In this document: positions 16,524 to 61,471 of the stretch, piece after piece | Position numbering within the stretch: the stretch's first letter is position 1 | Layout: every line of letters starts with the position of its first letter | Origin: Labia minor | Taxonomy: Eukaryota; Arthropoda; Insecta; Dermaptera; Spongiphoridae | Reading direction: 5' to 3' | DNA: 64,000 nucleotides | NCBI GenBank assembly: GCA_963082975.1 | Contig: OY720349.1 | Coordinates: 48,775,962 to 48,839,961, forward strand | Position numbers and translations under genes: made by a program | Notes under the pieces: generated by a model | Database searches by the model: none | What the model was told of the DNA's origin: nothing | The model's input: only the letters and a program-made list of their open reading frames with translations

Positions 16524-16687
16524 TTACTTTCCCGCATACTTCGTAAAGGGAAGTATTGGAATCGTCAAAAATTTCGACTTCGAGATTTTGATAGATCTTG
16601 ACGTTTTAGACCTCCCTGAGTCGGAAAATACCATTTTTGGAATTATGTCTGTGTGTGTGTATGTATGTATGTATGTATGTATGTATG

Positions 16688-16718
<31 letters not shown>

Positions 16719-17656
16719 TGTCTGTAAGCAAATTTACTCAAAAACTAATCGGACTTCGAAATTTGGTATACCGATATTATTCACAGTTTGTAGATTTCTA
16801 TCAAAATTTCGTCAAAATCGGTTAACCGGAAGTGGTACTTTACCTACAATGGTTGCGTTTACCTTTCAAGTAAAGTACCAGTTTGCTTCGAGATATTTGC
16901 TTCATATTTTGTATATAGATTTAAAAATATGAAAAAAATTCAGATACCAAATTTCATCATGATCTGACTACCGGAAGAGACATTTTACCTATACAAGTAG
17001 CGTTTCCTTTTTACCGACCGACGATAGTAAGGGAGGTATTGTTTTCACACCAAATTTCACCTATGGATATTTTTAGGTACATATTTCCACGAATCATGCA
17101 TTTTCTTAACAGAAAAAAGTATTTTTAGCATGATGTCTGTCCGTCCGTCCGTCCATCTGTCCGTCCGTCCGTATAGATGTGTACAGTCTGAACGGCTCAA
17201 CGGATTTTGATGAAATTTGGTATATTTACTTAATGCATCAGTATGATGAATGGATCAACTTTTGGTGCAAATCCGGAAACCGGAAGTGCTAGTATTGCCG
17301 ATCGAAGAGAGGAAGTGAAGGGTTATTTTCATATCAAATTTCACGTGAAGGCATATCTCCACGTGTTATGCACTTTGTATTGGTTTTATCCTCGAGAAAA
17401 ATCATCTTCATTAGTTTTTTCTTAATTTAAAATTATATGACGTCACCCAGCACTTCATGACGTCACAGCCAGCCCTTATATATTATAAATAAAATAAAAT
17501 AAAATTAAAAATATTTATATTATATCCATATCTGTTTTTTTACATTTAAAATATCAGTTAACCGGAAGTAGCACTTTATTACATTCTAAATATTCATTCG
17601 CAACTCTTTATACCTATTTATATGCGGGAAAGTCTAGGGGAGGACACTCCCGCTTA
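16524..17656 (+). mobile_element. Chimeric Helentron-like element (family B ends, family A inside)
   Basis: It begins TTACTTTCCCGC and near its end has GCGGGAAAGT (17624-17633), the inverted match placed inside the 3' end. A GGGAG...CTCCC hairpin and the terminus CGCTTA follow. This asymmetric arrangement is the hallmark of Helentron/HINE (DINE-1-like) elements. A (GTAT)n microsatellite occupies about 16660-16716. From about 17012 the sequence switches to family A (ACCGACCGACGATAG, (GTCC)n near 17141-17170, paired TGACGTCA at 17438 and 17458), losing the family A 3' end. It returns to family B 3' sequence at about 17540. It has no coding capacity. Confidence 0.82.
17012..17540 (+). mobile_element. 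Helentron-like family A segment, 3'-truncated, inside family B
   Basis: Starts with TTTTTACCGACCGACGATAG and follows the other family A copies through the GTCC microsatellite, the GAAATTTGGTA/CCGGAAG core (17212 and 17280) and the two TGACGTCA palindromes. It stops before the internal 3' inverted repeat and hairpin. It arose either by insertion followed by a deletion, or by template switching between families. Confidence 0.8.
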
Positions 17657-17884
17657 TTTAATTATATGCAGTTTACATAACATAGTCTATATATATTGCT
17701 ATAATATACATCGAGTGTCATGTGAAAGAAGTTTATGGCTGCAACTACAATAAATGCGTATTTCTTCTGATACGAAATAAACTTGATTCTTTTCCCTTTA
17801 AAATAATACCATTATTTAAAACCTTTGGTTTGTCTTCCAACAGTCCCCTGATGTCAGATTATATATATATAGTATATAATAATT

Positions 17885-18046
17885 TATTAAAGCTTTGGAG
17901 GCTGTTTTTATTTATAAGGGAATTTTGTAAATAAAACCACATATTTAAAATTTTTATTGTAAATGTATTCAAAAAAATACACAACGTTTCGATTGCTATT
18001 TCTACATTCGTTATCAAGCGACTGCACTGTCCGAGCGTCCAGTGAC
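17885..18046 (-). mobile_element. Penelope-like terminal-repeat fragment
   Basis: This 160-bp segment matches the left arm of the palindrome at 48571-48957 (ATTAAAGCTTTGG at one end, GAGCGTCCAGTGAC at the other). On the minus strand it reads CGCTTGATAACG, a variable stem, then CAATCGAAACGTTGTGTA. That wording is characteristic of terminal repeats of Penelope-like elements in animals, which often carry hammerhead-ribozyme motifs. Only the terminal repeat is present, without RT or endonuclease. The assignment rests on sequence resemblance. Confidence 0.45.
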
Positions 18047-19132
18047 GGCAGTATAGTATATAAGTTCAGAAATACTTATAGAAATACAAATAAGAAGAAA
18101 AATACTTTGATTCAAATTTGTTTTTTTATCAAAAATAAAATTAAAATTTAATTAATTAAAGTTGAAATTAAAAAAGATCTTCAAAATAAGCAGATAAAAT
18201 TTTAACTTAAATAATAAATAATAAAATAAATAAATTGTATTTGTTAAGTTTCGAAAATTAATTGAGAAATATAGGCCGAAAGATTTTTCGTTTTTTAAAG
18301 AGGCAAAGAAAAAATTTCCTGGCCACCGTTCCCGCTAATAATAAAATGACTGGAGGTGGAAGAATAGAATTCTTTAGGGTACGTTTTCTTGAAGGGAGTG
18401 TAATATCGTACAAGCGTAATTCAACACTTGGTCTTCCCATTACATTTATATAACAAGATTGAAATGAATAAAACTGGCAATGGTAGACTGGTACACCACC
18501 CCGTGAAGGGATGAAAAAAAGCCTTGTAATCAAATGCACCCTATGCATTGCCGTACTAATAGTACTACTAGATCCTTATAGGCCATGTCTTTTCCTAATA
18601 AACAATAACAAGGCGTATTCGTAAGGGTGCATTCAATTAAAGAAAGAAGGCCTGTTTCATTAATTCATGAAAGAAAATAATTAAAATGAAAGTGATATAA
18701 TGGGCGTTAATAACCTCTTCCCCTAAAATAAAAACAACACCGAAGTAATTGGTGATACTTTAGAAAAAGGTTCCTTGAAACGTAAATAATTAAATCGAGT
18801 TTCACAAAACTGAATTTCATCACAATTTTAATTATATTATTCAACAGAAAAACATTTTCTAAAAAAAAAATTAGAAAATTTTAAAATTACCAATTCATAT
18901 TTATAATTTTTTTTTTAAATTTAAAATTTAAGTTAAATAAATATGAAGTGTAAAGAAAGAAAAAAATTAAAAATTTTATTATATTTTAGATTTTAAATTT
19001 TAAATTTAACAATATTTGAAACCCAATCTACGAGGTGGCATTTAAATCTTTTTAAACCAAAACAGATGATAAAGCATCTAATTTCTTTTACAACTTCCGA
19101 TAAAAACGAGAATACATTCATTTATACAAATC
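18047..19132. other. Spacer with composition island 18270-18680
   Basis: The island is of balanced composition with no repeat relatives in the window. It contains short overlapping open frames on both strands and ATTAATTC-type homeodomain cores. I list it as unassigned and possibly regulatory. Confidence 0.3.
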
Positions 19133-20005
19133 TAAGGTGACCATATTTTGAAAACACCAAATCAGGACATTTGACATTTTTTTTAGAACCAAAAATGAAA
19201 CAAATTTTGGAAAAAATTCGGAAATGTTCAAAAGCTTAGTCCAGAAAACGTTTGACCTTTTTTTTTAGAACCAAATAAAACAAAAGTACGAAATGTCTTA
19301 AATATTTCAAAAAACGGGACAGATATAAATAAGTTGACCTGTGGCCAGGTCCGAACCGACCGACGGTTTGAAGTAATTTAATTTCCAACTACAGAAACAA
19401 TTTCAAATAATTTTAATATATCTATTAATGTAATAAAAAACACATATGGATACATAAATAATAAATATAAACATTTTTAATTTTATTTTATTTATAATAT
19501 ATATGCAAGACCAGGCTGTGACGTCATATAATTTTAAATCAAGAAAAAACTAATAAATATGATTTTCCCGAGGATAAAACCAATACAAAGTGCATGATTT
19601 GTGGTGATATATAAAAAATCTGCTTTGGTGTGAAAATAACCCTTCCCTTCCTATCGTCGATCGCTAATACTACCACTTCCGGTTTCCGGAATTGCACCAA
19701 AAGTTGATCAATTCATCCCACTTATGCATTAAGTAAATATACCAAATTTCATCAAAATCCGTTGAGCCGTTCAGACTGTACACATCTATACGGACGGACG
19801 GACGGACGGACAGACATCATGCTAAAAATACTTTTTTCTGTTAAGAAAATGCATGATTCGTGGAGATATGTAAAAATCTCCACATGTGAAATTTGGTGTG
19901 AAAACAATACCTCCCTTACTATCGTCGGTCGGTAAAAAGGACAGTTAGGAGGACACTTACAAAAGAAGAACAGAGCTTACAAATCGAGGACGATTGGTCA
20001 CCTTA
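19133..20005. mobile_element. hAT-like element split by a nested Helentron-like copy
   Basis: The outer ends are TAAGGTGACCATATTTT at 19133 and TGGTCACCTTA ending at 20005, an 11-bp inverted pair of the kind seen in hAT miniature elements. The left part contains two imperfect repeats of a block with TTTAGAACCAAA (near 19180 and 19267). The interior is interrupted at about 19329-19938 by a complete family A Helentron-like element in minus orientation, after which the hAT right end continues. I did not find a clean 8-bp target duplication. Confidence 0.7.
19329..19938 (-). mobile_element. Helentron-like family A copy nested in hAT element
   Basis: Minus-oriented copy. Its 3' end is at the left (TAAGTTGACCTGTGGCCAGG; hairpin GACCTG-GCCA-CAGGTC on the element strand, then the internal ACCGACCGACG repeat). 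Its 5' end is at the right (CGTCGGTCGGTAAAAA). A (GGAC)n tract lies near 19792-19812. Only one TGACGTCA is left, at about 19518, consistent with loss of exactly one 20-bp interval between the usual two. Non-coding. Confidence 0.88.
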
Positions 20006-21310
20006 ACAAAAAATATTTAATTATATATCAATATGAAAAGAAAAAAATATTATTAATTATATAAATTGAAATTAAACTTTGGTAGATAAGTATTACAAAA
20101 AAGTAAACAAAAATGTAAATTTAACAAAAAAATAATACAATTTACATCTTATATTTTCAATTTTTTTCAATATATCAATAAGAATATCAAATTCGAAGAA
20201 GATAAAAATTAATTTGTGATTATAGAATTAATTCATTTTCTTTAAGTTCTCAATTAAATGAAGTATATTTAGTATACTAAGATATTTAACACTCCCCTCC
20301 AATATATTCATTGAAAAAAACAATAATCTTAATTATGTGTATTATCTTTTTTAATTTATATTTGGTTTTTATTTCTGTTTTCTTAATGTAATTATGATTA
20401 TAGAATCAATTCTATTATCTATTGGTTTCTTTTAGATAATGATATAAGTTGATTGCAATCCACCATAATAATATTTCATGTTTATTCATTATGTTAAATT
20501 AAAAAAAAAATTATTAATTAATTTATTTATTAATCTACCTCAATGTTAATTATTATTTTTGATTATTTAAAATATATTTCCATTAATTAATCAATTATTA
20601 CTATTATATTTATTCATTACAGAAATAATAATTATAATTTTCAGTACTAGATGAATAATTTGAAATAAAAAAAATCAATATATATAATTTATTTATTGAG
20701 ATATATATATATAACTTAAATAGGTGGTGTATTAAAAGAGAGAATAATTAATATCCGGTATTTATGCCAAATATACTGGTACTGATCGATTGCCCAATAT
20801 TTGAATAATTTACCTAAGATTGATGTTGATTTATGAAAAACAGCGTTTCAATAGATATAAATTACATCGATATAGTAATTTATAATGAAAATTAAATGTC
20901 AGGCTCTGTGCCAACTTTACGTACCATTCAGATCAGGAGCAATTAATAGGGAGTACGCTCACCTTGATAAATATCTTCTCATTTTTTTCGACCTTAATCT
21001 TCGTTTAAAGGTAGCAAGTTGGCTAATTTCAGAATTAATACACTCAATGTGATAAATATGCAATTATGTACTATGACATTAATCAGTCTTGGGGGGTATC
21101 TTTTGAAAAATTTGTCTTAAAAAAAATAATAAAATAGGGTTAAATATTACGTATATGATATTCATTAAATTAAAGAGTAATTTATTCTGAAATTTTAATT
21201 AAATTATAAAAGCAGGTAATTTTTTTTTCCTTTAAAAAAATAATAAAATAAAATAATTTAATACTTATTTAGAATCTAATGAAATACTTAACTTCCCAAA
21301 TATTGTATTT
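20006..21310. other. AT-rich spacer with island 20890-21120
   Basis: The island contains GATAA and ATTAAT motifs and no open frame of note. The remainder is AT-rich with nothing recognised. Confidence 0.35.
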
Positions 21311-21938
21311 TTTTACCGACCGACGATAGTAAGGGAGGTATTGTTTTCACACTAAATTTCACATGTGGAGATATCTCCAAGAATCATGCATTTTCTTAAC
21401 AGAAAAAAGTATTTTTAGCATGATGTCTGTCCGTCCGTCTGTCTGTCAGTCCGTCCGTATAGATGTGTACAGCCTGAACGGCTTAACGGATTTTGATGAA
21501 ATTTGGTATATTTACTTAATGCATCAGTGGGATGAATTGATCAACTTTTGGTGCAAATCCGGAAACCGGAAGTGGTAATATTAGCGATCGACGATAGGAA
21601 GGGAAGGGTTATTTTCACACCAAATTTCACCTGAGTAGATTTTTTACATATCACCACGAATCATGCACTTTGTATTGGTTTTATCCTCGAGAAAAATCAT
21701 CTTTATTAGTTTTTTATCAATTTAAAATTATATGACGTCATCCAACCATTCATGACGTCACAACCTGGTCTTACATATATATTATAAATAAAATAAAATT
21801 AAAAATATTTATGTTATATTTATATCTGTTTTTATTACATTAATAGATATATTAAAATTATTTGAAATTGTTTCTGTAGCTGGAAATTAATTTACTTCAA
21901 ACCGTCGGTCGGTTCGGACATGGCCACTGGTCAACTTA
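21311..21938 (+). mobile_element. Helentron-like family A, complete copy
   Basis: This is the best plus-strand reference copy. It starts TTTTACCGACCGACG, followed by a block containing GATAGTAAGGGAGGTATTG, then a GTCC/GTCT tract (21428-21458) and the core with GAAATTTGGTA at 21498 and CCGGAAG at 21566. Next comes a second version of the 5' block (GACGATAGGAAGGGAAGGG near 21589) and TGACGTCA at 21733-21740 and 21753-21760. It closes with the internal repeat CGTCGGTCGGT (21903-21913), a hairpin around TGGCCA, and the end CAACTTA. No protein is encoded, so it would need replication proteins from an autonomous Helentron. Confidence 0.9.
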
Positions 21939-22147
21939 TTATGTCTGAATTATTTTTTCTTAAAGTTTTTATCATTATTTAATTGTAAATTTATAAACAC
22001 ATTATATTAATTTATTTTTATAGATTTTTTTTCAAATATTTTTATATAATTTTTAGTCAATATACATAAAAAGAGAAATAGAATTAAAAAAATGGAAGAT
22101 AAGTCATTTAATCGCCGCTAAACTGTAGTCTCGTGCATTCGATTTTG

Positions 22148-22180
<33 letters not shown>

Positions 22181-23712: not shown

Positions 23713-24683
23713 TTATATATGTAGATTTAAAGCAAAGATTCATTAAATGAGAAATAGAAAAAGTGATATTGGATTTTTTTTTAATATTGAATCATGATCA
23801 AAATCATAAGAAACACGCATAAAAAAGATACTATATTATTAATACCAAATATTTAACTTCTTAAGGCTGATTACATTGAGAGTTATTTAGAGAGAGAAAG
23901 AAAGAAAGAAACCTTTATTACCACCAAATTAAATTTTTATCTCTGCTTTTATTGGATTAATTTCTTGCAAGAAGATAACAAAAAAAAAAGAAATCATCTG
24001 ATAAATAAAGAGTAATCACAAAATCTTTAATTATTTTTAAAAAGAAACCATAAAGACATTTATTTACAGATTGAAAAAGTGAACTAATAATATTTATAAT
24101 TTTTATAAATATAAAAAAGATAGATCATATATCATATATACCAGATAATAATTTAATGTTCAATAGTATTTATTTAAACTTTAATAAATAAGTTGACCTG
24201 TGGCCAGGTCCGATCCGACCGACGGTTTGAAGTAAATTAATTTCCAGCTACAGAAACAATTTCAAATAATTTTAATATATCTATTAATGTAATAAAAAAC
24301 AGATATGGATACATAAATAATAAATATAAACATTTTTAATTTTATTTTATTTATAATATATATGCAAGACCAGGCTGTGACGTCATGAATGGCTGGATGA
24401 CGTCATATAATTTTAAATCAAGAAAAAACTAATAAATATGATTTTCCCGAGGATAAAACCAATACATAGTGTATGATTTTTTCGTGGTGATATATAAAAA
24501 AAATCTCCTCATGTGAAATTTGGTGTGAAAATAACCCTTCCCTTCCTATCGTCGATCGCTAATACTACCACTTCCGGTTTCCGGATTTGCACCAAAAGTT
24601 GATCAATTCATCCCACTGATGCATTAAGTAAATATACCAAATTTCATCAAAATCCGTTGAGACGTTCAGGCTGTACGCATCTA

Positions 24684-25265
24684 CGAGGTAGGGTCAAAAA
24701 GTTCGCGGAATGGTCGCTTATAGTCAAGTATTTCTTAGCTGAAAGGGAAATTTTTGTTTGTGAGGTTGGCATGTGCTTTTGAGGTTAGCAGGCAGTTGTA
24801 GTTGGTTCCGTGCGTTCGGTGTTTAATATTGTAGATCGTAGTTTCTTTTTTTCGTCGGATTGTGCAATGTCGTCATTAGAGCAGCGTGGCAATATTAAAT
24901 TCTGTGTGTTGCTGGAGAAATCACCCTCGGAGACTCTTGAGATGCTAAAAAAAGCATACGGAAATTCTGCGATGAAGAAAACAGCAGTTTACGAGTGGCA
25001 TAAGCGTTTTCGCGACGGTCGCACAACAATTGATGATGACGTTCGGACTGGGCGGCCTTCCACTTCCACTTGAAAATGCGACGGAGCGGCTGAAGGAACT
25101 TTCAAAAAACGGCTTTCAAGAGTGTTTCCAACAATTATATGAACGGTGGAATAAATGTGTAGATGCAGGAGGAGAGTATTTTGAAGGGAAATAATGTAAG
25201 AATGTTATAAATAATTGTAATAAATTTTTAATAACCAATTCCGCGAACTTTTTGACCCTACCTCG
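24684..25265 (+). mobile_element. Internally deleted mariner element
   Basis: Terminal inverted repeats CGAGGTAGGGTCAAAAAGTT at the left and the exact complement at the right (27 bp or more in all) are flanked by TA duplications (24682-24683 and 25266-25267). At 582 bp it is less than half the usual length of about 1.3 kb. The N-terminal coding part from ATG at 24867 has the transposase helix-turn-helix (IKFCVLLEKSPSETLEMLKK and VYEWHKRFRDGR) and stops after RTGRPSTST. It is followed in another frame by the C-terminal tail FQECFQQLYERWNKCVDAGG. The whole DDD catalytic core is missing, so it could move only with outside transposase. Confidence 0.95.
24867..25073 (+). pseudogene. mariner transposase, N-terminal DNA-binding part only
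   Basis: About 68 codons beginning MSSLEQRGNIKFCVLLEK. The region corresponds to the paired helix-turn-helix domain that binds the terminal repeats. The conserved WHKRF.DGR and D..GRPSTS segments are intact. The reading frame could start upstream at 24810, but alignment to the family favours the internal Met at 24867. The catalytic domain is absent because of the internal deletion. A truncated DNA-binding protein could in principle compete for transposon ends; expression is unknown. Confidence 0.85.
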
Positions 25266-25404
25266 TATACGGACGGACAGACATCATGCTAAAAATATTT
25301 TTTTCTGTTAAGAAAATGCATGATTCGTGGAGATATGTAAAAATCTCCACATGTGAAATTTGGTGTGAAAACAATACCTCCCTTACTATCGTCGGTCGGT
25401 AAAA

Positions 25405-26897: not shown

Positions 26898-27047
26898 TGT
26901 TACGGTAAAAGTAGATATTGTGGCAAATGTACACATTTTCCGGTAAATGTGCACATTAGCCTCCTCATTTTGGTAATGTGCATTCAACTAACATTTACAT
27001 TTTCAAATGAGGGAAATGTACATTGAATTCACAATGACCATGCCGTT

Positions 27048-30750: not shown

Positions 30751-32473
30751 CAGATTTTATACATGTACTTATAGAAAACATTAAAAAATTTTTAATTTAA
30801 TTTAATTTTATTTAATTTTTTTTTAATTAATGCTTAAAATTTATTTAATATAAATGATTTTTCCAATTTTTTTTTTATTTATTTAATGATGAATCGTAAA
30901 ATAAGAATATCTCATCACAAAAAATTAGTAAAGAAAATTGAATTTATTTTTTTTTTTTTCATTAAATACTTTGTTATAATTAGAAATGGTTTCTTTTGGA
31001 TAATATAACATCTATTGTGCTTTTATTTCATCTCTATATAAACGGTTTGTTTCATTCAAAAAGCATATGGGGACGTTATTCCCATCTGCCGTGACAAGCG
31101 CGCAATAAGTGTCTCTTCTTCAAGAGTAGAAAATCTTGTCCCCTTTTTCATAGCCAACCCGTACCTTCTGAAATTATTGACAACAGACATAAATAAATAA
31201 CGACGTTCTTGGAGGACCCTAGCTCTTAATCTTAAAAGATTTCTTCCTGAAAAATAATAGAAACATGTCAAGCATCTTGGGAATTAAGTCTCCCCTTCCT
31301 CTCTCCGCATCTCTTGAGAATTGATCCAACCCCTATAACATTTGGGTTCCCCTACAAATAATGACTTTTTTTTTTGAAGGTGGCTTTAAATTTAGAGCTA
31401 ATAATTTCATACCAACAACAAAAATAACTAATCTTTGAATAATTGATATTTCAATTAATATTTAAGCCGGTAGAAATTGGAAGTTTTAAAAAAGAAATGA
31501 ATGTTCAATTGGGCAAAAGACGAGTGAGGAATCACACCAGGATACGATTGAATTAATAAGACATGAGAAAAAATAAATTATTTATAAAGGGGAGGATTTT
31601 AGTAAATATTGACAAATTAAATAGAAAAACACTTTAATAGATTTGGAATTTAAAAAACAAAATAAATAATTAATAAAAATAGAATATGAGATTTTGGATT
31701 GAATCCACATTAAGTGCAGTAATTTCATTTAAAAAAAAAAAAATTTAAATAATATTTGAATTTTGTCTTTCGCAAGTAAATTGTTAATTTAACTTAACTA
31801 CGTTAATATATTTTGGAAGGATTAAATTTTAACAAATATCATTCGAAATGGATGTAAATTTAAAGTAATTCTTAGTTTAAGTAGAAGTTTTACAATTATG
31901 TCGCCTTTAAGTGCCATTTTCTTATATAAAAAAATCAATTTATGTTAGAATAATGATATATATGTTAGAATAATGATATATATAACCATACGCCTATTTT
32001 ATAAAATTTTATTTTCAAACTATCATTTTTTTAATACTTTGAAATTTTGGTTTTGAATTTTAAATTAAAGATTTATTTTAGTGATTATATTAACAAGGAT
32101 ATCTTTAGTACTAAATGACAAGTATAAAAAAATAATATTAGAAATAAAATTTAGTAAAATTAGTTTTCAAAAAGATTATTTTTAAACCATATGTTTAAAA
32201 AAAATTTAAATGCATTAGAACCTTATACTGAATGTAACTTACAAATTCTCACAATCAGTAAAAATATTTTGAGTTTATGATTTATTAAACTATATATTGG
32301 AGTTTAGAGATTGTGAAAAAATAATTCTACGAGAAAACCCGTAACAAAGTTAAGTGTCTTAACTACTCCTATAAATAGATTCTCAATATTTTTAAAATAA
32401 AAGTATCAATTAAGAATTTTTTTTTATTTTTTTCTATCATTATTTCTTTCAATTAAAATGGTAACCAGAGTAA
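30751..32473. other. AT-rich spacer with island 31040-31370
   Basis: The island has a 71-codon minus-strand open frame without family similarity. A tandem duplication of ATGTTAGAATAATGATATAT occurs near 31943 and 31963. No gene is supported. Confidence 0.35.
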
Positions 32474-33124
32474 ATAAGTTGACCTGTGGCCAGGTCCGAA
32501 CCGACCGACGGTTTGAAATAAATTAACTTCCAGCTACAGAAACAATTTCAAATAATTTTAATATATCTATTAATGAAATAAAAAACTGATATGGATACAT
32601 AAATAATAAATATAAACATTTTTAATTTTATTTTATTTATAATATATATGCAAGACCAGGCTGTGACGTCATGAATGGCTGGATGACGTCATATAATTTT
32701 AAATCAAGAAAAAACTAATAAATATGATTTTTCTCGAGGATAAAACCAATACAAAGTGCATGATTCGTGGTGATATATAAAAAAATCTCCTTTGGTGTGA
32801 AAATAACGCTTTCCTTCCTATCGTCGATCGCTAATACTACCACTTCCGGTTTCCGGAATTGCACCAAAAGTTGATCAATTCATCCCACTGATGCATTAAG
32901 TAAATATACCAAATTTCATCAAAATCGGTTGAGCCGTTCAGGCTGTACACATCTATACGGACGGACAGACGGACAGACGGACGGACAGACGGACGGACAG
33001 ACATCATGCTAAAAATACTTTTTTCTGTTTAGAAAATGCATGATTCGTGGAGATATGTAAAAATCTCCACATGTGAAATTTGGTGTGAAAACAATACCTC
33101 CCTTACTATCGTCGGTCGGTAAAA
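32474..33124 (-). mobile_element. Helentron-like family A, complete copy
   Basis: Ends TAAGTTGACCTGTGGCC (left, element 3') and GTCGGTCGGTAAAAA (right, element 5'). TGACGTCA starts at 32664 and 32684. A mixed GGAC/AGAC tract lies at about 32957-33001. It lies only 218 bp from the next copy. Confidence 0.92.
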
Positions 33125-33342
33125 ATTATTAATTACGTTAATTCTATCATTTGAATTTAAAATTTATCAACACGAATTTGAGTTTCAAATATTATATTAA
33201 TAAAATCCTCTTATTTTGTGGATATTATCTTTCATTCAATCAATAACCATGTTTCAAAAAATCACCTTCCCAATGATTATTCAAAGGAGTTTCTGCCACC
33301 AGTGTTTCTTAGATTATTCGAATTGGCGTCATCTATCTGAAA

Positions 33343-33956
33343 TAAGTTCACCTGTGGCCAGGCGCAGAACCGACCGACGGTTTGAAGTAAATTAATCCAG
33401 CTACAGAAACAATTTCAAATAATTTTAATATATCTATTAATGCAATAAAATACAGATATGGATATAACATAAATATTTTTAAATTTATTTTATTTATAAT
33501 ATATATGCAAGACCAGGCTGTGACGTCATGGATGACTGGATGACGTCATATAATTTTATCAAGAAAAAACTAATAAATATGATTTTTCTCGAGGATAAAA
33601 CCAATACAAAGTGCATGATTCGTGGTGATATGTAAAAAATCCCCTCATGTGAAATTTGGTGTCAAAATAACCCTTCCCTTCCTATCGTCGATCGATAATA
33701 CTACCACTTCCGGTTTCCGGATTTGCACCAAAAGTTGATCAATTCATCCCACTGATGGATTAAGTAAATATACCAAATTTTATCAAAATCCGTTGAGCCG
33801 TTCAAGCTGTACACATCTATACGGACGGACGGACATCATGCTAAAAATACTTTTTTCTGATAAGAAAATGCATGATACGTGGAGATATGTAAAAATCCCC
33901 ACATGTGAAATTTGGTGTGAAAACAATACCTCCCTTACTATCGTCGGTCGGTAAAA
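33343..33956 (-). mobile_element. Helentron-like family A, complete copy
   Basis: Same orientation as its neighbour at 32474-33124. TGACGTCA starts at 33521 and 33541. Its microsatellite is contracted to about three GGAC units near 33822-33833, the shortest among the complete copies. Confidence 0.9.
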
Positions 33957-39288: not shown

Positions 39289-39360
39289 GCGATGGTGGTG
39301 TAATGGTCAGCATAGTTGCCTTCCAAGCAGTTGATCCGGGTTCGATTCCCGGCCATCGCA
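39289..39360 (+). tRNA. tRNA-Gly(TCC)
   Basis: A 72-base cloverleaf. The acceptor stem GCGATGG pairs fully with CCATCGC, and A is the discriminator. The anticodon loop CTTCCAA (39320-39326) carries anticodon TCC at 39322-39324. The T arm CCGGG-TTCGATT-CCCGG is perfect. The sequence closely matches animal tRNA-Gly(UCC). The anticodon stem has two wobble pairs (G-U) but remains paired. CCA is not encoded, as usual in eukaryotes. Box A/box B promoters are internal, and a run of seven T (39366-39372) just downstream serves as the Pol III terminator. It reads GGA (and probably GGG) glycine codons and looks functional. Confidence 0.97.
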
Positions 39361-41243: not shown

Positions 41244-41808
41244 TATATATAGTACATAGTATATTATAGTTTATTAATAGAATATGATAAGGATATGTAT
41301 CTATGATAATTTTTCGACTAAAGTGAAGGGACTTTAGTGACTGTTTATTGAAATTTTCTAATTAAGATATGAAAGTGTCTGTTTTGTACAGTATAATGTT
41401 TTGCAATTTTCTTAAAAACACCTCTATAATGATTTTAATTAACTCACTTCAATAATGTCAAAAAAATTATCTTTAATATGAAGAAGATTTTATTCAGATT
41501 GAAGTAGTCTGAAAGGGTTTAATCAGCAAATTTCCAAAATGGCTTTCCATAAAGTTCGTTTAATTTTTATTATTTACAATAAAAGTAAAGTGATCACATT
41601 GTTAATAGTAATAAAAAATCAATATGAACAATATAGATAATAAATATTAAGTGAATATTGAAAAAGTGTAAAAAGTTTTGTCTTACTCCCACCATATTTT
41701 TATCGTAATATCTTAATACATATAGAGATATAACCTTGAAGATATTCAAATTTTTAACATACTTAAAATTTACCTAGGTTCTTGATAATCGAAAATAAAC
41801 AAATATAT
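41244..41808. other. AT-rich spacer
   Basis: No gene or repeat terminus recognised. Confidence 0.45.
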
Positions 41809-42020
41809 TTAGTCCGTTAAGTGGTTATGACGTATATATACGTCTTGATCTCTTGTACAGTGTAGCGCTTATGACGGATATATTCGCATCATGACGTATA
41901 TATTCGTCTTACCCATTAAATATACCAAGAAAAATCATTATGCGAATATATCCGTCATAAGCGCTACACTGTACAAGAGATCAAGACGTATATATACGTC
42001 ATAACCACTTAACGGGTTAA
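41809..42020. mobile_element. piggyBac-type miniature element
   Basis: A 204-bp element (41813-42016). Its terminal arms, from CCGTTAAGTGGTTATGACG, are nearly perfect inverted repeats for more than 70 bp each. It is flanked by TTAA on the right (42017-42020) and TTAG on the left (41809-41812, one mismatch). The right terminus reads CCCGTTAAGTGG on the opposite strand, so CCC at the end plus a TTAA target points to the piggyBac superfamily. Each arm contains the self-complementary GACGTATATATACGTC. No coding sequence. Confidence 0.85.
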
Positions 42021-43128
42021 AATTAGTTTACTGATAATATTTATATTTAATTTTTTTCTATAAAAAGTATCGATTGGAAAACGTTTCAATTTACTTTTTA
42101 ATCCCTTTTCGCGTAATCTTTATTCTCATAGTCTCTACAATCTATATGGTTAACTATTGCTGATTAAATTCTTCTCGATTTGATTCTTTATAAATTAACG
42201 ATTGCTAACCATCTTTCCCTCATGTTTTATGATATCCAAAAAGTCAAAATATTTAAAGATCCCTCGAACAAAACAACGATAGGTTCTCAGCATTTTCATA
42301 ATAGCCTCTGTTCAGGAAGAGATAAAATCAGCCTTTTTGTTTCAGTCGGTATTTGGGTAACGAGGTCCTCGGCATCTTAACAAGCAGGAGGGTCGGCCCC
42401 CAAGGGCACGTGCTTTCCACCCAGACATCTTCAACCTTATCGCTTGGTTCCAATGCCTGATGCCAGCCTGATAACAGGAACCTTGCGCGAGGATCATTTA
42501 AGCGGGACAGCTAAAAATCAATAAACAAAAAAGAAAATATCCATCATAACTATCATTTGAAAAAGAGACACTTATCTGCTGACAGATTGTTGAACACCAC
42601 CATTGGTTGTGTAAAGATAAAAATATGTAGTAATGAAAGAAGTTTTATTGACTGGAAAATATCTTGAATGACATTTCTTTAAATCTCGAAGATTGTAATC
42701 TTTTGCAATAAAATCAATTTTTTTTTATCTTATTTTTAAATAAGCTTAATAAAATCAGTTCATCTCTGGAAAAAGACTGAACCGGATAATTATTTTGAAA
42801 GATGAAGTTCATTTTGATTCAGTGAGGAATGAATCTATTTATGATATTATTTTATTCACTTAATTATATATAAAATCAATTCCCTCTAATATACTGGTGT
42901 ATTTATATACGAGTACTAATATTATTATCATTTCTATTTATAGAATAAAAAATGCAAACAATGATTGATAGTATGAAAAAAATAATTAATGGTTATGAAG
43001 AGAATCTGGCAAACCAAAAATTAATTAAAAATAATATGTATAATATTATTTCATTTTCATGTAATTTATTTATCTATATAATATCTCCTAAACACTTTAT
43101 TATCAAATTATTATAAAAATAAATCTTT
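42021..43128. other. Spacer with composition island 42080-42620
   Basis: The island has balanced composition, densest at about 42350-42510 (GGTCGGCCCCCAAGGGC and similar). Its short open frame (42180-42380) has no family resemblance. Possibly conserved noncoding DNA. Confidence 0.3.
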
Positions 43129-43181
43129 AAAAATCACTTAATTTGATTGTTGCTATAGCAACTTTGACTAAACATTTTTTT

Positions 43182-43639
43182 TTACTTTCCCGCATACTTC
43201 GTATAAGGGAAGTATTGGAATCGTCAAAAATTTCGACTTCGAGATTTCGATAGATCTTGAGGTTTTAGACCTCCCTGAGTCGGAAAATACCATTTTTCGA
43301 ATTATGTCTGTGTGTGTGTGTATGTATGTATGTATGTATGTATGTAATGAATGTGAGCAAATTTACTCAAAAACTAATCAAGCTAGGACTTCGAAATTTG
43401 GTACACCGATATTATTCACAGTTTGTAGATTTCTATCAAAATTTCGTTAAAATCGGTTAACCGGAAGTGGTACTTTACCTACACTGGTTGCGTTTACCTT
43501 TCAAGTAAAGTACCAGTTTGCTTCGAGATATTTGCTTCCTATTTTGTATATAGATTTAAAAATATGAAAAAAATTCAGATACCAAATTTCATCATGATTT
43601 GACTACCGGAAGTGACATTTTACCTATACAAGTAGCGTT
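43182..43639 (+). mobile_element. Helentron-like family B copy, 3' truncated
   Basis: Begins TTTACTTTCCCGCATACTTC and matches 16524-17010 closely, including the (GTAT)n tract and the core (GAAATTTGGTA at 43393, CCGGAAG at 43461). It ends at ACCTATACAAGTAGCGTT, just where the copy at 16524 switches to family A. Its 3' inverted repeat and hairpin are lost. It lies inside the Jockey target-duplication bracket. Confidence 0.88.
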
Positions 43640-44340
43640 AGGTGTAAATTATAAATAAATATAATAGTGTTAAACCATTTTACTTTATAATTAAAATCAA
43701 AAGCAGAATTTCTAAAACTATTTTCATTTGTGAAAATGAAGCGGATCATAAAAGATTAATAAATTTTTTGAAAAATATAAATACTGAATTTTATACTTAT
43801 TCGACTCTCCTGGGCAAGGATTGATTAAGCTAGTACTTCATGGGCTAAGTCAGGGATTCACCATTGAAGAAATTGAAAATGATTTAAAATTAAAAGGTTT
43901 TCAGCCAGAAAAATTGTACAACTGAAATCAAAAAGTACAGGAAAAGATATACCTATTAATATTTGCCTTTTCCCTCCGGATATAAATATTCAAAATGTAT
44001 TTAAATTAAATAGGTTGTGCTGTAAGACTATTAAGGTGGGAAAAATATAAAAAAAGCCTTCACACAGGTAACACAATGTTATAGTTGCATGGGTTTTAAC
44101 CTTAGGTCACGTACTTGTTGGTTAAAAGAAAAATGGAAAAATGGAACAAAATAAAATCACAACTAAACAAAACAGACTCTGATGGAATTATCAAAATGCT
44201 AATTTAACTGATTAGTAACCCGAAAATTATATATATCAATTGGAAAAATAATAAAATTATTAAAATCTATGTCAGAAGCAAATGATGGTTCGCAACGCCT
44301 ACAAATCCTTATGGAGGAAGGATTAAATATCTTAAGTTAA
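43640..44340 (+). pseudogene. Jockey ORF1 remnant (PRE_C2HC/zinc-knuckle protein)
   Basis: In changing plus-strand frames it encodes ICENEADHKRLINFLKNINT, then LVLHGLSQGFTIEEIENDLK, LKGFQPEKL, and KSTGKDIPINICLFPPDINI. These correspond to the PRE_C2HC region of Jockey ORF1 RNA-binding proteins. A zinc knuckle follows as QCYSCMGFNLRSRTC, with the expected His replaced by Leu. The final codons (LQILMEEGLNILS) end in TAA at 44338-44340, which overlaps the ORF2 start as TAATG. Several frameshifts and stops make it non-functional. The tight ORF1/ORF2 overlap is kept. Confidence 0.75.
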
Positions 44341-44695
44341 TGGCCCTAATTCAAAATTTTAATCTAATTAATTGGAATGCCAATGGCTTATTAGGAAAAA
44401 TAGCTGAATTAATAAACTTGATTAAATTAAGAAATGCACATGTAATAGCTATAACGGAAACTAGGCTCAAATCTGATTCCTATATTTATATACCAGGCTT
44501 CAAAATATATAGAAATGATAATATCCCTCCTGCGCGTGGAGTTCTTTTGGCAATCAAATCAAATCTACAATCCGAAAAATATCAACTACCAAGCACCGGT
44601 CACCTTGAAGCAATTGGCGCAAAAATACAAACACCTGGTTCCGCATGTAACCTAAATTCAAATTAATTTGAATTACCGCCCTCCAACTATGTTTA
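44340..44695 (+). pseudogene. Jockey ORF2, apurinic-type endonuclease N-terminus
   Basis: The open frame from ATG at 44340 runs for 108 codons: INWNANGLLGKIAELINLIK, then HVIAITETRLKS, then YIPGFKIYRND and RGVLLAIKS. These are the first motifs of the exonuclease-endonuclease-phosphatase domain of LINE ORF2: Asn of WNANG and Glu of the ITETRL metal-binding motif are present. RGGV is altered to RGVL. A frameshift occurs near the end, beyond which YLPPSNYVYI is still legible to about 44695. Later catalytic residues and the reverse transcriptase are absent. Confidence 0.85.
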
Positions 44696-48570: not shown

Positions 48571-48957
48571 ATTAAAGCTTTGGTGGTTGTTTTTATTTAT
48601 AACGGAATTTTGTAAATTAAACCACATATTGATATTTGTTATTGTAAATTTATTCAAAAAATACAAACATATACACAACGTTTCGATTACTGCTTCTGCA
48701 ATCGTTATCAAGCGACTGCACTGTTCGAGCGTCCAGTGACAAGTGACCAATGATCATTAATATAAGACCAAAGTCACCAACCAGATGGCGCTCTGAACGT
48801 GCTATTATATTAATGATCATTGGTCACTTGTCACTGGACGCTCGAACAGTGCAGTCGCTTGATAACGATTGCAGAAGCAGCAATCGAAACGTTGTGTATA
48901 TGTTTGTATTTTTTGAATAAATTTACAATAACAAATATCAATATGTTGTTTTAATTT
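48571..48957. mobile_element. Penelope-like terminal repeats in a near-perfect palindrome
   Basis: The arm 48613-48765 is repeated inverted at 48805-48957. I count very few differences, and they include A versus G near the ATTACTGCTT/AAGCAGCAAT site. The 39-bp spacer holds CAGATGGCGC. The left copy extends a further 40 bp to ATTAAAGCTTTGG, as in the fragment at 17885-18046. Each arm, read toward the outside, gives CGCTTGATAACGATTGC, a loop, then GCAATCGAAACGTTGTGTA. No protein is encoded. Confidence 0.7.
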
Positions 48958-50631
48958 ATTATTGATTTTATTCTTTCTTTTTTGCAAAGTTAATAACAGA
49001 ATAAGTTGATATTCATCTGAACTCATACTCATAGCAACAGCAAACGTAAATTTTTTATGAAAATACACTTTTATTAATATAATATAACGCGATCGTACTG
49101 GACCGCTCACACAATATATAACGAGTTTTTTTGTTTCTATATCGCAGGCCGCCGCGACAAACGCTGAATTACTTGCCATCATGACAGGCTGCTTACTGTG
49201 TGGCCGGACCTTAAATGTTTATTTAAATAAAAATGTCAGCCACAGGTAATTCGGTGCTGATTTCATTGTGTGGAATTTATTTCCTTCCATTATTTCAATG
49301 TCAGAATTTTTTTTTAAACAAGTCTAATTTTTAAGTAATAAAATGTGAAATGAAAATCATAGATTTTAGACAGTAAATAGCAACAAACTATTAAATATAA
49401 ATTTAAATATGATATTTAATTGTAAAACATTCTTCAGAGTATTTCAATAATTTGAATATTTAAATATAAGTGTGAATGTTGTCATAGACTGTTGTAATAT
49501 AAAAGTATATTTTAATATAAAAAATGTAATAAATAAATATTTATTTTATAAATTTCCACTCAAAAATATTCTTAGGTGTGAGATAAATTCATATATATTT
49601 TATACCCAACTCAACTCAAACCTCATCTTATTTAAAAACAAATCTCTTAAACCATTCCTACTATTAATTCATTATAATTTTTTTAATTAAATATTATAAT
49701 ATGTTTATATTAAATAAATAGAGGTAGAATTTAAGGATATCTATAATGAAGGAAAGTCGTAGTATAAATTTATTGTTTAGTGATCAATTTTAACTAAGTA
49801 ATGCCCAATTTATTTATAAAAAAAGGAATGTGTAATTTGATCTGTCCAAATGAGTTTAAATCGCCACTTTATTTATGGGTCAGTCTAAACTGTGACCGTG
49901 AATTATCTCCCATCACTGTATTTCAATTAAAATATTTCCTGTTGTCTGTTGATTCTCTAAATGCCATTAAAAATACCTAAAAAAAAGGGAAAACATCTTT
50001 TCAGTTAAATTTTCAATTTATATACGGCCATTGTTTTAAAATGAATACACACAGTGGCATTTGCCACTATTTAGGGGCCAATTAAACTCAAAAATATATT
50101 ATTTGACGGGCAAGCTGCTTGCCAGGTGAGTCACGGAGGGCTTTACCACACCACTGGTTAGAGCCTCTCTAATGGGATTGGCTCATCGTATTCGACATCG
50201 AGGGCCTTATTATGCCATAATTACAGATGGGCCTCCCTCCGCCCCTTACCAAACCACTCCTTTGGGTGTAAAAGACTATTCAGTCATCAATAGGGGTTGT
50301 TTCTACACGCGACACCTGGAACACCTTTAGATGTTTATTTTGTTCAAGTTCTAATTAAAATCAGACACTTGAATGATTAGGCTCTTCATTAATATTTTAT
50401 TGTAAGCTGTTGCTATTGGACAAATCATAAAAACTGAATGAAAAGAACATTTACTATTGTATTGTTAATTAGAATTCTCTTAAATGACTGATCTATTATA
50501 TCTTATTTAGTATTTTATTTAATTCTTAATTTAAACTAATCAACATAAGTTTAGATTTGATGAACATATAATTTTTAAATTTTCTAAATGTTTTATGAAT
50601 TAAAAACAAAAGAAAATTTCCTAATATTTTT
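48958..50631. other. Spacer with island 49800-50340
   Basis: The island is balanced in composition. It includes a TGAGTCA AP-1-type motif near 50128 and the hairpin GGCAAG-CTG-CTTGCC at 50109-50123. Open frames near 48817-49182 overlap the palindrome arm and are shadows. No gene is supported. Confidence 0.35.
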
Positions 50632-51244: not shown

Positions 51245-52613
51245 TTTTTTTTTGCGTTACATAATAAATTTCAATTGAATTCAATTATTTTTATACGCTT
51301 TTTATCAACTTCACTTTTCTGTTTGCCTATAATGTTAATAATTAGTAATTGGTTTTTAACCCTCTACTAATTGAGGAATTTCGTTCAAATTCGAAACGTA
51401 TAGATTCAATTTATAATATTTTAAATTTTCTATACATTTTCTATGCAATGTGCTTGTGTTGTTCTGTGATTACGAAAAGATATAAAGATAAAAATAGTCA
51501 ATAATTTCATTCATTTAGTGAGTTAATATTTTTTAATAATTTTTCTTGCAATCATGTGGTTGTACATTAATTTTATAGATTTATTTTGTGTTTTAAAAAG
51601 AAATGTTGCGGATCAAATATTTAAGTCATCAAGGACACCTCAACTTCAAATAAATATTATTGATTTATTTATTTTATCAATTATACATTTTAATTGTCTC
51701 TTATCAATGATTTCATCAGAGAGTATAGGACCGCTTCTCGCTGAGGCACAACCATATAATAAGGCTTAACCCCTCTTGTAAAAATAACAAAGAGAGGGTT
51801 TGCTGTTCGATTTGATTGAAACTCTTAGAAATCCCTAAGTAAAATTATATACTCAAAATAATCTCCCTATATTCTTTAAAATTTCAATATACTTAGTATA
51901 TAGTACTTTTATTTTAAAAATAATTAATTCATTTATGTTAAATTTACGAAATATTAATTATTAACAAAGAAATTAAAGATTATATACTTATATAGTATAT
52001 TAAAAGCTTTTAGATTCACAAAATTTAATAATTTATAAGAAAGAAAATATAAAACTTATTATTATTATTAAATGAAGATATTTTTAATTAATATTGTACA
52101 TTTATTAAAATTTCAAGTTGATTGATTTATTTATATATCTAAGCAAGTGTGATCTTTTACAACCAACTTATGAAAATATTAAAAAATATGTTCTAATATT
52201 TCCTATTCTTTTTCTAAATTGCACTTATAAGAAAATTTATAATTTCAAAAACATATAAATATTGTTGATTATAGTTGTATGATGTCTGTTAGGATTGTCT
52301 TCAAAAAAACTGAACTATAGTCACTGTGACAAACTCATATTTCTCTTTTTGTTTTTAATTCAAATAAATATCCCTATTTTAGCTTAGACTCGTTATCAAT
52401 TTTTTTTTTTGTTTTTTTTATCATATTTATATTATCAATATTTTTATTCCATTCATTTTGTAAAACTTTTAATATTGATTATTTAAAGTTTTATAATATG
52501 AAATAACTTATACACATACTCGTATTAAAACAAATATTTATTTTTTAAGAAAGATATTGGTAAATTAATTTGAAATTCCACTAATATATATATTCATATT
52601 ATTATAAAATAGA
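51245..52613. other. AT-rich spacer
   Basis: A small balanced patch lies at 51690-51850. The 71-codon open frame over part of it is not recognisable. Otherwise A+T-rich. Confidence 0.4.
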
Positions 52614-53254
52614 ATAAGTTGACCTGTGGCCAGGTCCGAACCGACCGACTGTTTGAAATAAATTAATTTCCAGCTACAGAAACAATTTCAAATAATTTTA
52701 ATATATCTATTAATGTAATAAAAAACAGATATGGATACATAAATAATAAATATAAACATTTTTAATTTTATTTTATTTATAATATATATGCAAGACCAGG
52801 TTGTGACGTCATGAATGGCTGGATGACGTCATATAATTTTAAATCAAGAAAAAACTAATAAATATGATTTTTCTCGAGGATAAAACCAATACAAAGTGCA
52901 TGATTCGTGGTGATATATAAAAAAATCTCCTTTGGTGTGAAAATAACCCTTTCCTTCCTATCGTCGATCGCTAATACTACCACTTCCGGTTTCCGGAATT
53001 TCACCAAAAGTTGATCAATTCATCCCACTGATGCATTAAGTAAATATACCAAATTTCATCAAAATCGGTTGAGCCGTTCAGGCTGTACACATCTATACGG
53101 ACGGACGGACGGACAGACGGACGGACAGACATCATGCTAAAAATACTTTTTTCTGTTTAGAAAATGCATGATTCGTGGAGATATGTAAAAATCTCCACAT
53201 GTGAAATTTGGTGTGAAAACAATACCTCCCTTACTATCGTCGGTTCGGTAAAAA
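52614..53254 (-). mobile_element. Helentron-like family A, complete copy
   Basis: Left end TAAGTTGACCTGTGGCC, right end GTCGGTTCGGTAAAAA with one inserted base. TGACGTCA is at 52804-52811 and 52824-52831. A (GGAC)n/(AGAC) tract lies at 53098-53131. The core spacing is 68 bp when read on the minus strand (52989 to 53057). Confidence 0.92.
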
Positions 53255-55205: not shown

Positions 55206-55440
55206 TATTATATAAATATATCTATATATATAAAAGGCAATGTCTGTCTGTATGTCTCGCCTAAACTCAAAAACTACCCGTCCGATTGCGATGAAACTTT
55301 CAGGGATTGTTGTGGGCATCCCAGGGAAGGTTTTAGTGTAGTTAAATTCAAAATTAATTTATCCAAAATTAATTTAATTAGTAATATTTATGTAAAAGTC
55401 TATTCATGGTTACCATGGTTACATTGGTTACTTATAAGTA
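55206..55440 (+). mobile_element. Possible fourth Helentron-like family fragment
   Basis: Contains GGCAATGTCTGTCTGTATG followed by CAAAAACTACCCGTCCGATT and GATGAAACTTTCAGGGA. The layout (TCTG-type tract, then an AAAC...CCGAT...GATGAAA block) parallels families A-C. The CCGGAAG partner and terminal structures were not found. It resembles a widespread arthropod repeat, but the family assignment is uncertain. Confidence 0.45.
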
Positions 55441-58400: not shown

Positions 58401-59162
58401 ATAATTATATATATATTCATATATTATTTTTTAATGAAAAATATTGAAATATTGTTTTTTTTTTGAAAGTTTACTAATAAAATCTTGGTTTTAATTAATA
58501 AAATAAATAAATCTTCAATTAATTCTTGATTAGTGAATGATTCAAGGGATGATTTCGATGAATAGGACGGCGAGCGTCTTGCACTGCAAGGGGAATGAGT
58601 ACTGAATGCGTTCGAGGCAGCAGCGCATCGGCCGGCAGGCATGCAGGTGGGGTCAGGCGGAGAAGACAGGAGTGGGGCGGGCGGGGTCGAGCGGAGGTGA
58701 AATTTGAAAGCTTTTCTTGCAATTTATTACAAATAAATATTATATTAATTAAAGAAAAACATAAATATTAATTTTTTTTATAATTAATGGTGTTTTTATA
58801 TAGATTTGAAATCGAACCGATAGAAACAACATTTAAATTTAATTCTTTTAAGATTTTAATGAAAAATTTATAAAATTTATAAATATAATTAATATATCAG
58901 TAAAAAGTTATATAAAACGCATTTTATAAAATGTAATTTTTAATAAAATATTTTTTTTTAAGTTCATTATGGAAATGAATATATTTTTAAAAAAACATGG
59001 AGGCGGAGGGTGAGATAGAAATTGTTCAATTTTAAATTATCAATTGATTAACGAGTGTGATATAACATAAATTTAATGAAAATACCTATAATAACAAAAT
59101 AAATAATGTATTAATAAGTAATATCTATGTAATATAATAAAATTTCCCTATTTAATTTGTTT
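55441..59162. other. AT-rich spacer with islands
   Basis: A balanced island lies at about 55720-56450, with an 11-C run at 56323-56333 and a 60-codon open frame of no recognised family. A very GC-rich patch lies at about 58545-58705 (listed separately). The rest is A+T-rich without recognised genes. Confidence 0.35.
58545..58705. other. Abrupt GC-rich patch with G-runs
   Basis: About 160 bp of strongly GC-rich DNA in an extremely AT-rich setting. It includes GGGGCGGGCGGGGTCGAGCG (58674-58693) and other G-runs that could form a G-quadruplex, and several CpGs. Two overlapping minus-strand open frames are proline/arginine-rich by composition only. It may be a promoter-like island or a captured fragment. 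Confidence 0.35.
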
Positions 59163-59541
59163 GTTTAAACCAGTGATTCTCAACCTGGGCGATCGACATC
59201 TTAAAGGGGGCGATTATTTGACTATAGGATTTTGGGGGGCGAAATCATTTTCAAAAAAAAGGTAAGATGATTTTTCGAACAGGCTTTTTAAACATTTCCT
59301 CTTTTTTCAATTTTTTCAATATGGTTCTAAAAAAAAGGTCAGATGATTTTGCAATCAGGTTCTTAAATATCAATTTTTCAATATGGCTCTAAGTATCACT
59401 TAGTGTACCTACCTTATATTAGGGATTATCATGCAATTTTTATCTGTAAAAATTTATAGGGGGGGGGGGGGGGCGAATTAAGGAGCGGGTCTTACAAAAG
59501 GGGAGATTGGTCCAAAAAGGTTGAGAAACGCTGGTTTAAAC
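59163..59541. mobile_element. hAT miniature element with 8-bp target duplication
   Basis: The 363-bp element (59171-59533) starts CAGTGATTCTCAACC and ends GGTTGAGAAACGCTG. Identical GTTTAAAC copies flank it (59163-59170 and 59534-59541). The interior has two imperfect units with AGATGATTTT...CAATATGG...CTCTA (near 59265 and 59340) and a run of 15 G at 59459-59473. Non-coding hAT derivative; the intact duplication suggests limited age. Confidence 0.93.
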
Positions 59542-60864
59542 CATGGTTTTTCTTTTAAAACAGTGTAATATATAATTTACTAAAATTAAGATATCTTAAA
59601 AATTCGAGGTGATAGGCAAAAATTAATGGCATATTTGAATTCAGGGCATCAAATTCATATAAAATCACCTCCAAAATCATTGGCACCAAAACCACTGTTG
59701 ACAAGTGCTATATTTAATTTTTACATCTTGAGACTCTAAAGCCAATTTAGTTTTTGTATATTGTATATCTTTTATGATAAATTAGAAAAGATATATTGTA
59801 TACTGTTATATTTTCCTTTTAATAAAAGATTTCTATAAAAGATAAAGAATTTAAAAAAATTTGTAAATGAAGTGTAAATTCCTGAAACGATAGCGTTGTA
59901 TAGTCTATCATTAATATCCTTGAATTTATAACTACAATTTTCTACACATTTCTAAAAGTTGTAACCACCCTTCTGAATTGAAATGTGTTTTTGAAAAGTG
60001 GAAGGAGGGTAGTCCAGGGCATTCCAAACCCACACATGTCAAAGCGCCGCGACATATTGGGGTGAGAATTCCAGATACGTATATCAAAGTCACTTTCTAC
60101 CCTCACTCTCAATTGAGATTTGATAAATACAAATTGCCAAAGGGATTAAGGGTGGCAATTTTATGCGGACATAATTTATAAATAGACACAAATATTATTT
60201 ATTAAATTTATTTTTTGATTTTAATAATTAAATTATTTTAATTATGTTAAAATTAATATTATATTATTTAATTAGTAGAGACAATAACAAGGTGATAATA
60301 ATATGATTTTAAAATTAAAAAAATTTCTATCCTCGAAATAGTAAGAGATGTATATTTCCGAGATGAATTTTTTTCAAATATGCAATTATCTACTCATTCG
60401 AGTCGAAACGGTGACTTCAGGGTTGTAATTTGTATAAAATGGTGCTCTTGCAAATATGTTTATTGTGAAACATAATTGGTCAAATTTTTAGCAAAATATT
60501 ATTAAATAATCAATGATTCATAATCATAGAGCAAAAACAAAGAATTTTCACACTATAATTCTGGAATCATTCAAAATTTTATAAAATATAAAATGATAAT
60601 GATAAAATAAAAAAATATTTTGAATAATTATTGAAATATGATCCTCCAGGTTGGGGGTTTATATGTAGGGAAAGCAACCCACATTTGTAAAATAACAAAA
60701 CAAAAATCGCTCAATGTACCAAAAAGAACAAGGCGGAAATATAAATATAAATAAATATAATGAAAAGAGTTTAGTTGTTATATTTCCTTAAATTATTTAA
60801 AAGTCATTAAAGATATAATCATGATAAATAAAATTCACAACTTTCGTATACTTCAAACATAAAA
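59542..60864. other. Spacer with island 59930-60180
   Basis: The island carries a 67-codon open frame (59978-60181) without recognised similarity. The remainder is AT-rich. No gene is supported. Confidence 0.35.
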
Positions 60865-61471
60865 TAAGCTGGAGTGTCTCCACTCGACTATCTCGCAATT
60901 TGAATTGGATTAAATAACATAATATATTATATTTAAATTAAATTTAATTAATTATAAATTATAAATAATAAATATTAACCAGCAAATGTTTGTTTTTTTA
61001 TTGATGGCACCATGGCACGTGTTGGCGCGTGAGATTTGCAGTGTTAAAAAATTAATTCTGGTACTTTCAGCGATTCAATGAAGCTGAAATTCTATATATA
61101 GCAGTTTTATACAATTATTAATCATGTGAAAAATTATCAAACATATATCTTTATTTTTACGGTCACTTTAGAGGAAAAAAATCAAAACGTTGTAGGTAAT
61201 GACCCTCTTCCGGTTGAGCTACATTTCTCAAAAGTTGATAGAAAACTATGAATTTTGAATAATGCTCATGTACCAAATTGCATCATTCTAGCTCAAACCG
61301 TTTTTGCGTAATCTTGCCTACATACATACACACACACATACACACACACACACAGACATTTTTCTCATCCTTAGTGAAAATGATTCAGGAACCTTCAAAA
61401 CATATAAAAACATAAAAATCTCAACATCGAAAATTTTCGTGATCGCAATACTATCTCTGGCGAGATAGTAA
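60865..61471 (-). mobile_element. Helentron-like family C, complete copy
   Basis: Minus-oriented: TAAGCTGGAGTGTCTCCACTC at the left is the 3' hairpin end, followed by the internal ACTATCTCGC. The right end GGCGAGATAGTAAAAA is the element 5' end with its hairpin. A (CA)n tract lies at 61326-61354. The terminus is CTTA here rather than CTAA. Confidence 0.9.

Follow-up and report, generated by a model that had tools for sequence, protein, structure and literature searches.

Among non-autonomous Helentrons, the DINE-1/INE-1 elements of Drosophila (SGM, mini-me) contain a core of more than 90 bp behind a microsatellite, which is conserved in 12 Drosophila species, and Yang and Barbash (PMC2374699) read this conservation as functionally significant and as suggesting that the core takes part in transposition. 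The HINEs of the mite Metaseiulus, as described in PMC4067079, have subterminal inverted repeats (sub-TIRs) near both ends, a 3' palindrome, no coding capacity and a T-rich target, and are reported there to be without a 5' inverted repeat and without a core. The Hel-2-like non-autonomous Helitrons found in insects and in insect viruses (PMC4344730) are described as having a 5' inverted repeat, sub-TIRs and, downstream of the 5' sub-TIR, a tetranucleotide microsatellite. In a 64,000-nucleotide stretch of the Labia minor genome (contig OY720349.1, positions 48,775,962 to 48,839,961; hereafter the window), three element families, A, B and C, share a core bounded by two anchors, GAAATTTGGTA and CCGGAAG, the distance between which was originally predicted to be fixed at 68 bp, either as a spacing-sensitive DNA or RNA signal or as the mark of a common ancestral core. 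We consider it probable (about 0.8) that the 68-bp interval is part of the ancestral 'block A' core of three non-autonomous Helentron families (HINEs, DINE-1-like) and owes its constant length to descent.

The layout of the window elements is the same as that given for DINE-1 in PMC2374699, with a 5' sub-TIR, a 5' block, a microsatellite, the core, a variable middle, a 3' sub-TIR and a 3' stem-loop following in this order in all three families. Their core fits the published description of the DINE-1 core in position and length. The GTCY-rich block-A microsatellite of DINE-1 is found in family A, families B and C having TG/TGTA instead, while the sub-TIR sequences differ from those of DINE-1 and the 5' end of family A is present a second time inside the element. 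The window elements share sub-TIRs near both ends, the 3' palindrome, the lack of coding capacity and apparently the T-rich target with the mite HINEs, but possess the core reported as missing from the latter, and are therefore closer to DINE-1. They also have the three listed features in common with the Hel-2-like Helitrons, again by description rather than by sequence. A DINE-1-type core in the matching position is already known, and the 68-bp length as a new measuring signal is not established. No fixed 68-bp spacing was found in a literature search of titles and abstract openings, which leaves figures and supplements outside and the absence unproven, and the string GAAATTTGGTA turned up in four papers, none of which concerned transposons, as judged by title.

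Anchor spacing and homology across the three families

Spacing was counted from the first base of GAAATTTGGTA to the first base of CCGGAAG, the core being the 75 bp that include both anchors. The eight anchor pairs originally listed have correct coordinates and each lies 68 bp apart (cores A1 17212-17286, A2 21498-21572, B1 16758-16832, B2 43393-43467, C1 30355-30429, C2 47879-47953 and C3 50838-50912 on the plus strand and A7 52983-53057 on the minus strand). Five additional cores, all on the minus strand, have the same spacing, namely A3 (anchors 19750/19682, core 19676-19750), A4 (24645/24577, 24571-24645), A5 (32917/32849, 32843-32917), A6 (33781/33713, 33707-33781) and C4 (61281/61213, 61207-61281), so that the spacing is exactly 68 bp in 13 of the 13 cores of the window. 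In a core profile search of the window, all 13 scored E ≤ 1.8e-21, and only a short inverted fragment (E = 0.0016) came next. The anchors are the most conserved columns of the core, and the distance is kept despite their decay in A6 (AAAATTTGGTA), C1 (TCAGAAG at +68), C3 (CCGGAAA) and C4 (GCAATTTGGTA).

The families differ from one another at 20-29 of 68 core positions. When the inner 57 bp are compared without gaps, identity is nevertheless maximal at offset 0 for B-C (36/57), A-B (29/57) and A-C (27/57), against shuffle means of about 16-17. All 22 exact copies of GAAATTTGGTR in the window fall within element intervals, which span 8164 of the 64000 bases, and, together with the identity peaks at offset 0, this confinement indicates that the anchor pattern exceeds chance. 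The in-register homology between families bears out the common ancestral core of the original prediction. The 13 copies represent only three independent lineages, too few for deciding a spacing rule.

The homology does not end at the second anchor. B1 and B2 each align without gaps to C1 up to +173, which makes the 68-bp interval an arbitrary slice of a longer collinear block. Between +68 and +173, B shows two to four gap runs against C2, C3 or C4, some of which reflect losses inside individual C elements (poly-T length and, in C3, 3 bp). In family A, homology with the other families is lost soon after CCGGAAG, the reason being a repeat of the element's own 5' end that starts at about +81 (TATTAGCGATCGACGATAGG... 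against TTTTACCGACCGACGATAGT...). The second anchor thus stands directly before this junction in family A and is partly prominent for that reason. The inner copy lies at 21579-21671 in A2 and at the same position in A3, A5, A6 and A7, and matches the outer 5' end of the same element at 68/91 (A2), 68/90 (A3), 71/95 (A5), 78/91 (A6) and 65/87 (A7) positions. By its appearance it arose long ago, through a nested insertion or a duplication of the end, and then became a fixture of the family. The inner sub-TIR carries two changes, whereas in four of five copies the outer one is an exact match to the 3' sub-TIR, which fits the outer 5' end being the one in use. In family B, CCGGAAG recurs at 16826, 16971 and 17562 (B1) and at 43461 and 43606 (B2) with similar letters after each occurrence, the repeat interval being 145 bp in both B1 and B2 and the motif occurring once more past the nested A1. 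It is perhaps a short central repeat.

The window contains 30 copies of GAAATTTGGTR when up to one mismatch is allowed, and 26 of these lie within elements. Among the seven elements tested, copies number three in A2 and A6 (minus, plus, minus), two in A5 (minus, plus), two in B2 (plus, minus) and one each in C2-C4, whereas shuffled sequences average 0.03-0.10 copies and never have more than 1 or 2. Family A's third copy belongs to the duplicated 5' end and is therefore not independent. An inverted copy of GAAATTTGGTA lies at 16945-16955 (minus strand) in B1, with its B2 counterpart at 43580-43590. The presence of GAAATTTGGTR in both orientations would fit a protein-binding site.

The original prediction also held that no reading frame is open through the interval and that it is not coding. 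The former does not hold, as in 11 of the 13 copies (the exceptions being A7 and B2) at least one of the six frames stays open across the 75 bp, while the latter probably stands, the open frames varying by family with no sign of coding. Coding constraint on the core was rejected, since the frames open through the 75 bp differ among families.

Indels, folding and the origin of the constant length

Outside microsatellites, 28 distinct within-family indel events were counted (16 in A, two in B and ten in C), with eight microsatellite events excluded. The 75-bp core contains none of them; the expectation is 3.66 (P = 0.020), which falls to 3.16 (P = 0.034) when each hot spot is counted a single time. 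The longest indel-free stretch across all three families is 97 bp, and random placement matches it in 6.5% or 11.7% of trials. The comparison with neighbouring intervals, originally put forward as a refuting test, has a mixed outcome: indels are present beside the core (B1 -13 to -8; C1 -29 to -23; C3 +90 to +92; poly-T at +100), but the scan-corrected probability of the depletion is only 0.065 or 0.117. The within-family depletion is only suggestive, the interval having been picked after being seen and homopolymer content lying outside the model. The copies might just be too young, and the interval too short, for indels to have arisen, which is an unlikely account, though one deserving some weight. 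The core varies at only 8, 2 and 9 of 68 columns within A, B and C, respectively, so that few within-family indels are expected, but the much greater divergence between families is not covered, and the neighbouring intervals of the same copies did acquire indels.

Between families, the claim that the interval shows no length change holds for its net length, but the best A-B alignment contains two cancelling 1-bp gaps. An equal gain is seen in 44 of 1500 simulated gap-free pairs at a gap penalty of -8 and in 86 of 1500 at -5, and hidden length changes between A and B are likely but not proven. The A-C alignment is gapless at -8 and not at -5. The B and C consensus cores, which differ at 20 of 68 positions, align without gaps at -8 and -5 and with two gap runs at -3.5. 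Within families, indels accrue at about 0.16-0.17 per variable column. For the 5' block, the core and the next 105 bp, the B-C comparison at -8 gives 1, 0 and 2 indels against about 10, 4 and 8 expected (4.1 for the core), and at -3.5 it gives 8, 2 and 8 against 6.1, 3.4 and 5.2. Only strict gap penalties thus reveal a deficit relative to within-family decay. The source elements may be under selection to keep their length throughout block A, the outcome being alignment-dependent.

Alternatively, the anchors could be the two halves of a single site bound by a transposition protein, the distance between them being selected, for example, for helical phasing. This would account for the invariant spacing in all 13 copies despite strong divergence between families, for the indel-free core within families (P = 0.020), for the lack of B-C core indels against the 4.1 expected at -8 and for the anchors being the most conserved columns. 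We regard it as quite improbable, however, given that the gapless B-C1 alignment runs on to +173, that the probability rises to 0.065-0.117 once scan-corrected, that the two B-C core indels at -3.5 are near expectation, that A-B prefers cancelling gaps and that only three lineages are compared.

The length could also be set by a conserved structure, of RNA or of single-stranded DNA, that spans the interval. RNAalifold joins the anchors by six pairs, with 98.6% of cells paired, and with inner helices added the pairing and the covariation score both exceed all 500 shuffles. However, none of the six anchor pairs is changed on both sides (covariation term -0.06), the same structure slid by -2 scores higher (0.180 against 0.155) with more double changes, and single-sequence DNA folds of the B1, A2 and C2 cores give z values of -0.67, -1.67 and -0.85. 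In B and C alone, one of 18 predicted core pairs has changes on both sides. Covariation is detectable in this set, as the 3' stem-loop, serving as positive control, has five of six pairs changed on both sides over five distinct rows. The slid controls have one such pair each and the shuffles 2.7 on average. The covariation score of the stem-loop, 0.733, compares with a maximum of 0.180 for the slid controls and is reached by one of 500 shuffles, 16 of 500 reaching five pairs. A length set by structure is accordingly very unlikely. Family B has a perfect 11-bp hairpin directly after the core (16833-16880 and 43468-43515; 138 nt fold, z -2.68), which was rejected as a common feature, the C2 counterpart folding like shuffles (z 0.37) and C having no hairpin in the same register.

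Taken with the gapless B-C1 block, the marginal indel depletion, the anchor helix without covariation and the two cancelling indels that A-B may conceal leave the spacing-sensitive signal originally put forward undemonstrated. Shared descent of a block A core remains the better explanation, against which several observations nevertheless weigh. The absence of core indels where 3.2-3.7 were expected within families (P 0.020-0.034) leans slightly toward constraint beyond plain descent. Neither exact sub-TIR is present in A7, nor the exact 5' sub-TIR in C3, and the B and C microsatellites are TG/TGTA where DINE-1 has GTCY. No autonomous partner (Rep/helicase, endonuclease) was found in the 64-kb window, which was not scanned systematically for Rep/Hel.

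Under descent from a common core, the elements would have been mobilised by rolling-circle transposition, with the Rep, helicase and endonuclease of an autonomous Helentron acting in trans and the sub-TIRs and stem-loop marking the element ends. The core would probably be a cis-acting stretch retained in source elements, and GAAATTTGGTR a candidate protein-binding motif. The constant length of the core would then be inherited, with no more than mild purifying selection against indels across block A in addition, and a dedicated 68-bp ruler would be unnecessary. A bolder idea, which we hold to be a long shot, is that the Helentron machinery lands on block A and gauges its length, the GAAATTTGGTR copies of both orientations and AACCGGAAG being bound jointly at set positions on the helix. 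Bases gained or lost there would then stop a source element from transposing, and three families with different end sequences would retain one internal geometry. One window with three core-sharing families of differing ends would be a handy system for testing the need for the DINE-1-type core. If its length were selected, an internal recognition step would be separable from end recognition; at present the picture is mostly one of ordinary shared descent.

Ends and positions of the elements

The Helentron-like character originally assigned to the three families is upheld by their subterminal repeats, covarying 3' stem-loop and T-rich ends. As in HINEs, the 5' inverted repeat lies near the end and the 3' one internally, a short palindrome occurs near the 3' end (86.7% of cells paired over the five distinct rows) and coding capacity is lacking. 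One of the eight stop-to-stop frames of at least 110 aa in the window overlaps an element, a 139-aa frame through the microsatellite and core of B1 that was not scanned against Pfam. The canonical Helitron termini (5' TC, 3' CTRR) are not found: family A starts with TTTACCGA and ends with AACTTATT in five complete copies and family C starts with TACTATCTCG, CTAA following the hairpin in C2 and C3 and not in C4. The family alignments extend from TTTTTACCGACCGACG to CGTCGGTCGGTTCGGACCTGGCCACAGGTCAACTTATT in A, from TTTTACTTTCCCGC to GCGGGAAAGTCTAGGGGAGGACACTCCCGCTTATT in B and from TTTACTATCTCGCCAGAGATAGT to GCGAGATAGTCGAGTGGAGACACTCCAGCT in C. The sub-TIRs are 10-11 bp long. Those of family A (ACCGACCGACG/CGTCGGTCGGT) are exact at both ends in four of the five copies having both ends and those of family C (ACTATCTCGC/GCGAGATAGT) in two of three complete copies, while in family B (ACTTTCCCGC/GCGGGAAAGT) the 3' sub-TIR is visible in B1 only. 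The microsatellite behind the 5' block consists of GTCY in A and TG/TGTA in B and C. T-rich DNA borders the 5' end of the eight complete copies examined, with no obvious target-site duplication.

The 3' stem-loop follows the 3' sub-TIR in all ten copies with a 3' end (A2-A7, B1 and C2-C4), and no 3' end of their own was identified in A1, B2 and C1. On the plus strand, A2 (21312-21940) has its inner 5'-end copy from about 21579 and a stem-loop at 21917-21932 that has decayed, with two mismatched pairs and a DNA fold no better than shuffles (z 0.74). On the minus strand, A3 (19328-19936), A5 (32473-33123), A6 (33341-33955) and A7 (52613-53252) have stem-loops at 19336-19351, 32481-32496, 33349-33364 and 52621-52636, respectively, the outer pair being compensated in A6 and both sub-TIRs altered in A7. 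A4 (24187-25404, minus strand; stem-loop 24195-24210) is interrupted at its microsatellite by an insertion (24684-25268), of which the plus-strand piece 24789-25070 matches the Pfam domain HTH_48 (HTH domain in Mos1 transposase; E = 2.8e-07); the insertion is, by its sequence, a mariner-like fragment. B1 (16522-17658, plus strand) contains A1, which starts at 17010 and lacks the final part of family A including the stem-loop; the B1 tail with its 3' sub-TIR (from 17624) and stem-loop (17637-17652) comes next, and the 3' end of family B is known from this tail alone. B2 (43180-43640) and C1 (30202-30588) lie on the plus strand, as do C2 (47694-48295; stem-loop 48276-48291) and C3 (50633-51242; 51223-51238), while C4 (60867-61470; 60871-60886) lies on the minus strand.

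No relatives were accepted from outside the window. Pattern scans gave 27, 7, 16 and 0 stretches in IMG/VR and eight in bacterial or archaeal contigs. When five element sequences were compared by BLAST with the 58 loci retrieved, the flanks of individual loci not being inspected, only matches of 19-33 bases were obtained, many of them the search pattern itself (best 27 bases, E = 6.6e-06). A spacing of 68 occurred in one of the 27 IMG/VR stretches of one scan, about the chance level for the 31 permitted spacings.

Elsewhere in the window, a 126-aa frame at 44286-44663 shows a weak match to Exo_endo_phos (E = 6.2e-05, under the Pfam cut-off) and may be part of an endonuclease from a non-LTR retrotransposon. 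Three inverted self-matches, at 12343-13459 (66% identity), 41796-42030 (84%) and 48613-48958 (91%), are probably other palindromic or inverted-repeat elements. A tRNA gene scoring over the Rfam gathering threshold is located at 39289-39360.

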